In this document: positions 19,984-29,724 of the stretch, one piece after another | How positions within the stretch are numbered: position 1 is the stretch's first letter | Layout: each line of letters starts with the position of its first letter | Assembly (NCBI RefSeq): GCF_000427425.1 | Contig: NZ_KE386494.1 | Span: 460,545-524,544 of the forward strand | Source of the DNA: Caldanaerobius polysaccharolyticus DSM 13641 | GTDB lineage: Bacteria > Bacillota > Thermoanaerobacteria > Thermoanaerobacterales > Caldanaerobiaceae | Length of the DNA: 64,000 bases | Reading direction: 5' to 3' | Notes under the pieces: generated by a model | The model's input: only the letters and a program-made list of their open reading frames with translations | Told to the model about the DNA's origin: nothing | The model's database searches: none | Made by a program: the position numbers and the translations under genes

Positions 19984-20124
19984 ATGCTCCCGATACAGGT
20001 ATCTTCAACCTGTAATCGAGAGCATCTCCGCTCCCCAATGCGACACTACATTAGCTTAAAAGGCGCTTTTCACACCCACCGTGAAAAGCGCCTTTGCATT
20101 TCCTTTTTTACTGCATCGCATCGG
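19984..20124 (-). promoter_or_regulatory. Structured nifH leader with two tandem attenuator-like hairpins
   Basis: Between the nifH promoter and ATG lies a transcript of about 208 nt with several mutually exclusive helices (minus strand). A perfect 15-bp stem pairs 20081-20095 with 20059-20073 (7-nt loop). Its 5' arm overlaps a small hairpin with six-base loop AAAGGC (20085-20100). A closing stem CCGATGCGA / TCGCATTGG (20116-20124 with 20035-20043) encloses that unit. Next, GGGAGC-GGAGAT-GCTCTC (20018-20035) overlaps the 5' arm of a second long hairpin (20008-20025 with 19984-20000), which is followed by TTTTTGTTT, an intrinsic-terminator shape. This layout fits transcription attenuation. It matches no riboswitch class I can recall. 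Confidence 0.7.
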
Positions 20125-20142
20125 TTGTTTTACTTGAATCTA

Positions 20143-20171
20143 ATTATATAAGCAATTTGATGATCTGTCAA
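20143..20171 (-). promoter_or_regulatory. nifH promoter, full sigma-A consensus
   Basis: TTGACA (20166-20171), 17 nt, TATAAT (20143-20148) on the minus strand: exact consensus at both boxes with ideal spacing. The start site should be near 20136. Such a strong housekeeping promoter ahead of nitrogenase implies that control happens after initiation (the leader) or by a repressor. No sigma-54 type GG-N10-GC site is seen here. Confidence 0.85.
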
Positions 20172-20241
20172 TAGGTTTTAGAAAATTTTTTATAATGAAT
20201 TTTTGCGATTATAAAATTTCATCTTACACAGCTTTTGTTTA

Positions 20242-21450
20242 TTATGCTATATATAATGCTTTTCTACTACATATATGTGTACAAAGTGAGCATCCGTCAC
20301 ATTTGTTTTTATCTATAATGAGGCCCCTATCAGGATTTAGTGTAAGTGCGTTGTAACCGGCATCGCGGCAAACTTTGACGCATTCTCCACAGTTTATACA
20401 CCAATCTTTCTTAATTTCTACTGTTTTAGTTTCGACCTTTAGCATAGAATAATCCGTAACACGCTCTATAGACCGACCAATCAATTTTTTAAGAGAATCG
20501 ACCTCTTTCCTCATCAAATAATTCTCCAAACCTTTAATTAAACCATGTATGATGCTAAAGCCTTTTATCATAACGGCAGTACATAGCTGTACACATGAGG
20601 CTCCCAGTAGCATGTACTCCAGCGCGTGCTCCCATGAAGTTATCCCACCAATACCCGATATCGGTAGATCTGTATACTTGGCCAGCTGAGCCACCGTTCT
20701 CAAACCTATAGGTTTTACCGCCAAACCTGAATATCCTCCATAGGTAGAATACCCGTTTACAGACGGCAAAGGCTCCAGCGTATCCAGATCCACACCTATC
20801 AGATATTGTACAGTGTTTATCGCTGCAAGGCCATCAGCCCCACCGTTCTTTGCGGCCTTTGCGATCGCCGTTATGTCAGTGACATTAGGAGTAAGTTTTA
20901 CGATAACGGGGACATTCACTGCTTCTTTAACCCATCGCGTTATTTCCTCCGTCAGTTGCGCATCCTGGCCTATAGCAGCCCCTACCCCTTTTTCCGGCAT
21001 TCCGTGGGGACATGAGAAATTAAGTTCTACAGCATCAATCCCTGCTTCTTCCACTTTAGAGGCCAATTCTTGCCAGCTTTTCTTTTCAACCTCAGCCATT
21101 ATACTGGCAATTAAAACTCGGTCAGGGTATTCTCTCTTGATCTCTTTTATTTCCTCAAGCCATACACTAAGAGATCGTTTTGTCACCAACTCTATATTCT
21201 GAAAACCAACTATCTCTCCATGACCCGTTTTAATCACAGAAAAGCGCGGTTTAACATACTCTATGTCCATGTCATCGGGTTTTAGTGTCTTTAATACCGC
21301 TCCACCCCATCCCATTTTAAATGCCCTTTTTATCATTGAACCGTAAGCTGTAGGTGGTCCTGATGCCAGCACAAAGGGATTGGGAAACTTTAATCCACAG
21401 AATTCCATTGTTATGTCGACTTTAGAATTCTCTATGTTATTTAATGGCAT
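20242..21450 (-). CDS. preA: NAD-dependent dihydropyrimidine dehydrogenase, PreA-like
   Basis: A 402-residue flavin TIM-barrel of the dihydroorotate/dihydropyrimidine dehydrogenase family. FPNPFVLASGPPT is at the start, ELNFSCPHGMPEKGVGAAIGQD is the active-site loop, and GIGGITSWEHALEYMLLGAS binds FMN. The C-terminal 60 residues hold two [4Fe-4S] motifs (CINCGECVKVC and CDGCSLCTHIC), as in E. coli PreA, which works with PreT to reduce uracil or thymine. No preT-like gene is adjacent, so the electron partner is unknown. It is the last gene of the pyrimidine cluster. A second protein of this architecture is at 47768. Confidence 0.85.
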   Translation of the reverse strand: MPLNNIENSKVDITMEFCGLKFPNPFVLASGPPTAYGSMIKRAFKMGWGGAVLKTLKPDDMDIEYVKPRFSVIKTGHGEIVGFQNIELVTKRSLSVWLEEIKEIKREYPDRVLIASIMAEVEKKSWQELASKVEEAGIDAVELNFSCPHGMPEKGVGAAIGQDAQLTEEITRWVKEAVNVPVIVKLTPNVTDITAIAKAAKNGGADGLAAINTVQYLIGVDLDTLEPLPSVNGYSTYGGYSGLAVKPIGLRTVAQLAKYTDLPISGIGGITSWEHALEYMLLGASCVQLCTAVMIKGFSIIHGLIKGLENYLMRKEVDSLKKLIGRSIERVTDYSMLKVETKTVEIKKDWCINCGECVKVCRDAGYNALTLNPDRGLIIDKNKCDGCSLCTHICSRKALYIA

Positions 21451-28485: not shown

Positions 28486-28541
28486 AATATTTGCCCCCTA
28501 CAAAAACAGAAACCAAAAACCCCACCGTTTTAAAGCCTTGA

Positions 28542-29654
28542 TCAGATCTCCATCAAACTGCTCTTATAAATCTTAAATAAATCCTCCTGTGTAACAACTT
28601 TTTTATTGTTAGCGATATTGGGAGCTTTTATGGCAATTGATGCGTAATGAGCCATCTCGCTCTCAGATATATCCGGTCTTTTGTCAACCCTTTGGAGAAG
28701 GCCACTTACAATGCTCCGCAATCCCTCAATATCTCTTATATTAAGTAAGTTCAAAATGTGCTCTACCTTATCCCCATCGGTTTCGCAGTTGAATTTAAGG
28801 TAATCTGCCAAAAGCATACCGTTAGCCCTGCCGTGAGGTATGTCTTTGTAGTACGTCAAAGAATATCCCATAGCGTGAACCATAGAGGTACCAGTATGTG
28901 CTATCAACATCCCGCCTAACAGCGATGAATTTAATAATACCTCTCTTGCTTTCAGGTCCAGCTGGCCATCCATGACACTTTTGTAACTTTCGCTAAACCC
29001 TTTAAGGCCTTTTTCCACCATCCAAAAGTAAAAGTCACCGTACTTCACTGATAAATATCCCTCAATTAGATGGGATAGTGCGTCAAGCATGGTATCTACA
29101 GTGACGCTATATGGAAGGTTTATGGTGTATCTGGCATCGAGAAAAGCTACCTGAGGGAAAATATAGGGACTTGCAAAATTCTTTTTAGAGCCTATCCTGT
29201 CGTATGTCAATATAGAATAGGGAGTAACCTCACTTCCTGTGCCAGCTGTAGTGGGAACAGCTATAATCGGCAAGGGTTTATTTTTAAATGTCTTGCTAAA
29301 AAGCTCTTCCGCATCCATCATGGGATTTGCAGCTAATACAGCAATGGCCTTTGAAGCATCCAGAGGCGACCCGCCTCCTATACCGATTACAAAATCCACA
29401 TCTGCTCTCCTTGCTACGTTAGCACCTTCTGAAACATTTTCCAGATCTGGATTAGACTTTACTCTGTCAAATATTTCATATTTTATCCCGTGGCTCTCCA
29501 GTGCTGATACTACATCATCAAGGGAACCATTATTTCTGGAACTCTTTCCTGTGACGATAAGGGCCTTATGGCCTATAGCCATGTGATCACTGTTCTCTTT
29601 TATACAATTTTCTCCAAAAATAATCCTGGTAGGTATAAAATAGTTATATTTCAT
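28542..29654 (-). CDS. Iron-containing alcohol dehydrogenase
   Basis: About 370 residues from ATG 29654 (AAGGAGTG upstream; a GTG 9 nt earlier is possible). Group III alcohol dehydrogenase features: FGENCIKENSDHM, NAD-binding GIGGGSPLDASKAIAVL, PTTAGTGSEVTPYSI, and metal-ligand region DALSHLIEGYLS with HAMGYSLTYYKDIPHGRANGMLL. In a reductive uracil pathway the natural role is malonate semialdehyde to 3-hydroxypropionate using NAD(P)H, making room for more electron disposal. Sulfoacetaldehyde reduction is an alternative for relatives. It opens the pyrimidine cluster and has a short attenuator leader. Confidence 0.88.
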   Translation of the reverse strand: MKYNYFIPTRIIFGENCIKENSDHMAIGHKALIVTGKSSRNNGSLDDVVSALESHGIKYEIFDRVKSNPDLENVSEGANVARRADVDFVIGIGGGSPLDASKAIAVLAANPMMDAEELFSKTFKNKPLPIIAVPTTAGTGSEVTPYSILTYDRIGSKKNFASPYIFPQVAFLDARYTINLPYSVTVDTMLDALSHLIEGYLSVKYGDFYFWMVEKGLKGFSESYKSVMDGQLDLKAREVLLNSSLLGGMLIAHTGTSMVHAMGYSLTYYKDIPHGRANGMLLADYLKFNCETDGDKVEHILNLLNIRDIEGLRSIVSGLLQRVDKRPDISESEMAHYASIAIKAPNIANNKKVVTQEDLFKIYKSSLMEI

Positions 29655-29689
29655 ACTGGTCACTCCTTTTATAAAAATATATAAAAATA

Positions 29690-29724
29690 AAAGGCGCTAT
29701 TATAAATAATAGCACCTTTGCTAT
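29690..29724 (-). promoter_or_regulatory. Short attenuator leader before the Fe-alcohol dehydrogenase
   Basis: On the minus strand ATAGC-AAAGGT-GCTAT (29709-29724) can form a hairpin with a six-base loop. Its loop and 3' arm are also the 5' arm of AAAGGTGCTAT / ATAGCGCCTTT (29709-29719 with 29690-29700), which is followed by TATTTTTAT, a terminator shape. Same logic and similar bases as the leaders at 25604, 27112 and the first unit of the nifH leader. Confidence 0.6.

Follow-up and report, generated by a model that had tools for sequence, protein, structure and literature searches.

EutV/EutW of E. faecalis shares with the locus described here a receiver-ANTAR protein, a C-G-closed hexaloop with G at position 4 (G4), a hairpin (P2) that overlaps the terminator, and conserved recognition residues (PMC3369931; PMC8934654). 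According to Ramesh 2012 (PMC3369931), EutV targets need both hairpins, P1 and P2, as well as A at loop position 1 (A1) and G4. One EutV dimer contacts one hexaloop and leaves A1 uncontacted; the residues R142, K143, K149, E160, Y164 and M172 contact the hexaloop, hold G4 and plug the loop (Walshe et al., PMC8934654). NasR (Klebsiella nasF) and AmiR (Pseudomonas amiE) likewise combine an A1/G4 hexaloop with an exclusive terminator, and AmiR carries a non-phosphorylated pseudo-receiver; they differ in their input domains and signals (nitrate, amides). ANTAR regulons of nitrogen genes have been predicted, e.g. in Desulfotomaculum acetoxidans and for the Pelobacter carbinolicus nitrogenase, each genome carrying several attenuators on its nitrogen operons, nitrogenase and glutamine synthetase among them; they were found by a dual-hairpin model, which single-hexaloop leaders would escape (Ramesh 2012, PMC3369931). 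C. acetobutylicum NitR is an antiterminator-type protein tied to ammonia assimilation, its control being described with an antisense RNA, and the C. thermocellum ANTAR protein Clo1313_2030 sits in a GS-GOGAT cluster (PMC4676874). Literature searches on the bacterial group studied here yielded no report of ANTAR-controlled nif genes.

The DNA analysed (the window) is a stretch of 64,000 nucleotides from Caldanaerobius polysaccharolyticus DSM 13641. As far as its sequence can tell, the leaders in the window very probably act as transcription attenuators and belong to an ANTAR antitermination regulon that serves nitrogen supply. Since ANTAR nitrogen regulons have already been predicted (Ramesh 2012), this core finding is of a known kind, and it agrees with NitR-type control as described for clostridia (PMC4676874); the likeness to NitR and Clo1313_2030, an ANTAR gene adjoining GS-GOGAT genes, is one of gene neighbourhood. 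Unlike those of EutV/EutW, the targets here are nitrogen genes, and half of the genome's own leaders have no P1. This P1-less leader class, G1 loops that occur only with P1, and an atypical receiver without a HisKA_2 kinase appear to be new.

Hexaloop hairpins in nif and uracil-degradation leaders

Direct reading of the sequence confirmed the pattern that the initial annotation had reported for four minus-strand leaders, those of nifH, a permease (perm), an aminotransferase (AT) and an iron-containing alcohol dehydrogenase (ADH). Each has a C-G-closed six-base loop with G at positions 4 and 5; the loop falls within or next to the 5' arm of a terminator, and the 3' arm of that terminator includes AGCGCC (Table 1). 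The GAAC/GTTC hairpins with six-base loops noted upstream in perm (CATGTG) and AT (AGCGTA) are present, the latter loop being AGTGTA in the sister species. The GGAGAT hairpin was also found and lies in the second nifH terminator, where it is probably paired with a P1 (attenuator 2, nifH2). For nifH attenuator 1 (nifH1; loop core GC[AAAGGC]GC at 20088-20097, minus strand), the position of the loop in the terminator 5' arm held, and the stem proved imperfect, with 2 bp, a T.T mismatch and then 4 bp. Two serial hexaloop attenuators ahead of nifH, as in the window, were also seen in relatives (L026 and L008-L012).

Table 1. Positions of leader elements and genes in the window
Feature	Position	Strand	Basis
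Predicted sigma-A promoter of nifH	20143..20171	-	TTGACA, 17 nt, TATAAT; sequence
nifH attenuator 1 P2 hexaloop, GAAATGC[AAAGGC]GCTTTTC	20083..20102	-	sequence; covariance-model matches
nifH leader terminator 1, intrinsic, mutually exclusive with hexaloop	20062..20092	-	terminator scan
Candidate P1 of nifH attenuator 2, AATGT[AGTGTC]GCATT	20037..20052	-	sequence
nifH attenuator 2 P2 hexaloop, GGGAGC[GGAGAT]GCTCTC (G1, G4)	20018..20035	-	sequence
nifH leader terminator 2	19978..20031	-	terminator scan
nifH, nitrogenase iron protein	19104..19928	-	TIGR01287
Permease leader P1, AGAAC[CATGTG]GTTCT (C1, G4)	25650..25665	-	sequence
Permease leader P2, TAGC[GATGGC]GCTG (G1, G4)	25633..25646	-	sequence
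Permease leader terminator	25601..25642	-	terminator scan
NCS1 nucleobase/allantoin-type permease	24144..25574	-	family matches
Aminotransferase leader P1, GAAC[AGCGTA]GTTC (A1, G4)	27161..27174	-	sequence
Aminotransferase leader P2, TAGC[GATGGC]GCTA (G1, G4)	27143..27156	-	sequence
Aminotransferase leader terminator	27112..27151	-	terminator scan
Class-III aminotransferase	25731..27086	-	PF00202
Predicted Fe-ADH operon promoter	29734..29763	-	TTGTCA, 18 nt, TATAAT; 9 nt from hexaloop stem
ADH leader single hexaloop, ATAGC[AAAGGT]GCTAT (A1, G4)	29709..29724	-	sequence
ADH leader terminator	29690..29719	-	terminator scan
Iron-containing alcohol dehydrogenase	28542..29663	-	family matches
PucR-family regulator, downstream of Fe-ADH	27265..28485	-	family matches

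The permease gene is followed by genes for a dihydropyrimidinase, an M20 hydrolase and PreA (family matches). Together with the aminotransferase, Fe-ADH and PucR genes, these operons beside the nif cluster would, by their family matches, encode a reductive uracil-degradation route. The M20 protein may be ureidopropionase-like and the ADH may act on malonate semialdehyde, assignments taken from known pathways. Uracil degradation is not named among ANTAR targets in the passages of PMC3369931 that were consulted.

A 16-base box, TTGTANGAAGACAATA, with TTGT/ACAA inverted ends was observed at window positions 25687-25702 and 27220-27235 (minus strand). Of the leaders, only those of the permease and the aminotransferase have this box upstream; it is probably the operator of the PucR-family regulator. 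The left edge of the window (1-240, minus strand) holds the 5' part of a 16S rRNA gene.

A single ANTAR protein encoded next to glnA

The genome (2.5 Mb, three contigs) encodes exactly one ANTAR domain (E 1e-21); the initial annotation had made its proposal depend on the presence of such a protein. The protein has 189 aa and consists of a receiver and an ANTAR domain (Pfam). Its gene begins 25 bases downstream of glnA and belongs to a cluster that also contains glutamate-synthase-type genes. The nearest solved structure is EutV (6wsh). Compared with EutV, R142, K143, K147, K149, E160, Y164, R168 and M172 are kept, and N173, R175 and R177 are replaced; the EutV sequence was taken from the structure-match alignment, in which the N-terminal residues are placeholders, which affects the numbering only.

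In the receiver, the phospho-Asp is kept, the second acid is replaced by Ser and the Lys by Arg, so that, unlike in EutV/EutW, the conserved Lys and second acid are missing. HisKA_2 kinases are the usual partners of ANTAR proteins. A search of the genome for this kinase family yielded none, and a partner two-component kinase, as looked for in the initial annotation, is therefore not supported. We infer that the ANTAR protein may instead be controlled via the adjacent glutamine synthetase.

In one genus of the relatives (family f4, genus g7; L038-L047) the receiver of the ANTAR protein is degenerate, with Glu in place of the phospho-Asp and Ser in place of the Lys. The G4-stacking Tyr is replaced by Met in these proteins, yet the glnA leaders of the genus retain AAAGGC loops. 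In another genome (G032, contig C2, 394635-398267), an ANTAR gene immediately precedes amt and nifH, all three having the same orientation.

Further predicted targets in the genome

Additional leaders of the same kind were found ahead of glnA (AGGGC[AAGGGC]GTCCT, with an overlapping terminator) and of two amt genes, amt1 (AAAAAGC[AAAGGC]GCTTTTT) and amt2, whose dual element consists of GAAC[GACGTT]GTTC followed by AGGC[GATGAA]GCCT. These predicted targets support the nitrogen-wide antitermination regulon that had been suggested from the window. In all regulon leaders the hexaloop stem overlaps the terminator 5' arm, in nifH1 with one mismatch in the stem. The least biased test is a covariance model (R2) trained on other genera only, without Caldanaerobius, and searched against the whole genome. 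Its top five sites were glnA, ADH, AT, nifH1 and amt1, and the next match had an E value of 0.475; the perm leader scored weakly (13 bits). A second model (R1), which included the genome's own leaders except amt2 and nifH2, recovered amt2 at rank 8 (E 0.06).

A survey of the exact motif GCRANGGNGC covered all but 15 of the 124 genome matches; the model searches span the whole genome. Three exact-motif sites (L084, L099, L125) were rejected as regulon members, lying at 3' ends or being weak. Near position 1764 of L125 (minus strand), GAAAC[AGAGAC]GTTTC and AAGC[AAAGGT]GCTT form a near-perfect dual hexaloop on a terminator, behind a 528-aa glycoside-hydrolase-like ORF and before an apparently decayed ABC-transporter ATPase fragment; it is a relic or a chance occurrence. 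Ahead of a methyl-accepting chemotaxis protein gene (L298, minus strand, C3:843722-843772), TTCAAC[AACGGC]GTTGAA overlaps a terminator, and this leader is a possible extra regulon member.

Single and dual hexaloop leaders

The initial annotation had likened the leaders to paired ANTAR hairpins. Pairs of P1 and P2 are present in perm, AT, amt2 and probably nifH2. The leaders of nifH1, ADH, glnA and amt1, about half of the genome's own, have a single hexaloop with no upstream P1; in nifH1 and ADH, a search upstream of the hexaloop found none. A definition of ANTAR targets by dual hairpins would exclude these four.

The two classes also differ in their loops. Canonical AANG loops were counted in 23 of 23 single and 5 of 12 dual groups in a table compiled by hand (Fisher 1.2e-4), and in this genome in 4/4 single and 0/4 dual leaders (p 0.03). 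A1 occurs in all 23 single-type groups and in 6 of the 12 dual-type groups, and G1 loops are restricted to leaders in which P1 is present. In perm and amt2 neither loop has A1, and in AT the P2 loop lacks it. The dual leaders here thus depart from EutV and NasR, which need A1 in tests, by having G1 or C1 loops. Their P1-P2 linkers measure 0-4 nt, compared to 5-12 nt in the E. faecalis eut leaders, where a reduction to 3 nt was harmful. These departures, like the mismatch in the nifH1 stem, count against the ANTAR reading.

We consider two explanations. In the first, which has an even chance in our assessment, two classes of leader share a single ANTAR protein: those lacking P1 would use one strict AANG loop, P1 would rescue weak G1 loops of P2, the dual hexaloop would not be a universal requirement, and switching would proceed without a classical kinase, perhaps via the glutamine synthetase next door. 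In the second, the dual rule holds, and either a P1 has been missed in the single leaders or the first attenuator serves as P1 for the second. A P1-like hairpin (at least 4 bp, G4, within 25 nt) was found in 9 of 10 dual-classed leaders and 0 of 31 single leaders, with 0.1 expected from shuffles; as the classes are defined by P1, the telling point is that there are no intermediates and no P1 in the single set. In the ADH leader, and in a number of glnA and nifH leaders from related genomes, only 7-11 nt separate the -10 box TATAAT from the P2 stem, too little for a P1 if transcription starts from the predicted promoter. Both observations speak against a missed P1, and most single leaders have no second attenuator. 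Serial nifH attenuators do occur in several genomes and the start sites are predicted ones, but the dual rule is on the whole unlikely to hold for the single leaders. If the two-class reading is true, some P1-less RNAs start at the antiterminator hairpin itself.

Conservation of the hexaloop and its loss together with ANTAR

The overlap of hexaloop and terminator is kept before nifH, glnA and amt in relatives from the same order, class and phylum, and it is often doubled before nifH. Among 42 distinct P2 sequences, stem pairs covary: 98.2% are paired and 44 cells are doubly changed (11.8 in shuffles), slid controls falling far below. The pairing count is in part a product of selection, since a leader had to show at least 2-3 paired bases to be chosen. 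G4, itself a selection criterion, is found in all 42 of them.

Of the glnA leaders (49 from 46 genomes, counted as independent), 37 of the 42 that come with an ANTAR protein have the hexaloop, as against 0 of the 7 that do not. The 37 include one leader (G011) scored on a loop that is not its real 3-bp P2, and one probable chance match (G037a). Shuffles led to an expectation of 1.1/49. Within one genus, an ANTAR protein is missing from G009 and G013, and in the glnA leaders of these two genomes, GGTAAAGGGCGTTTTC and GGAAAGGGCAGTTT, the closing pair is gone; eight congeners retain GAAGGC[AAGGGC]GTCTTC. The terminator remnant of G009 still scores with model R2, indicating that the loop and not the terminator has decayed. 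Model matches with E up to 0.001 were obtained in 39 of 48 ANTAR genomes and in 1 of 13 without ANTAR, kinship being ignored.

These data bear on the possibility that the hairpins belong to ordinary intrinsic terminators, located between genes or where operons end, and that the hexaloop is a by-product of AAAGG...CCTTT. Such a view could draw on two exact GCRANGGNGC matches in 3'-end terminators of sugar genes (L099, L125). In the window, however, the C-G-closed R1/G4 hexaloop was present on 4 of 5 nitrogen-leader terminators and on 0 of 11 others (Fisher 0.003), the exception, nifH1, failing the strict test because of its T.T mismatch. In about 408 kb of the organism's own DNA, in which some stretches had been chosen for containing the loop pattern so that the comparison is partly biased, it was found on 6 of 7 nitrogen-leader terminators and 1 of 85 others (6.8e-8). 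The latter comprise 0 of 8 non-nitrogen leaders and 1 of 77 operon ends, and the motif is hence far from equally common at unrelated ends, a possibility that the initial annotation had named as a threat to its proposal. As the stems covary around a fixed loop and loop and ANTAR are lost together, ordinary terminators are a very unlikely explanation. Control of the terminators by a riboswitch, a T-box, PyrR or another RNA-binding protein might be expected at amino-acid and pyrimidine genes, where such switches are common, but is likewise very unlikely: Rfam covariance models gave no match to the window leaders at E 1 or to the loci of glnA and amt at E 0.1, conservation is confined to the hexaloop and does not extend to a larger fold, and the presence of the hexaloop tracks ANTAR.

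Proposed mechanism and implications

For the ANTAR regulon we propose the following course of events. RNA polymerase would start just upstream of the leader, which by default would fold into the intrinsic terminator. Presumably under nitrogen limitation, a dimer of the glnA-adjacent receiver-ANTAR protein would bind the C-G-closed hexaloop, with G4 flipped onto the Tyr and the Met inside the loop, and thereby hold the P2 hairpin. Because P2 takes part of the terminator 5' arm, the terminator could not form, and the operon would be transcribed. The regulon would take in the nif operon, both amt genes, glnA together with the gene for the ANTAR protein, and the operons of uracil degradation (permease-dihydropyrimidinase-hydrolase-PreA, aminotransferase, and Fe-ADH-PucR). 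Dual leaders (P1 and P2) would coexist with single ones (P2 only), some of the latter directly after the promoter.

The provision of ammonium from N2 or uracil, its import and its fixation by glutamine synthetase make one coherent regulon. The genome offers a natural comparison of one- and two-hairpin ANTAR targets, which bears on the question raised by the EutV structure, why there are two hairpins if the dimer binds only one. The published dual-hairpin search would miss single-hexaloop sites. In this group of bacteria, one RNA-binding protein would tie together nitrogen fixation, ammonium uptake, glutamine synthesis and uracil scavenging.
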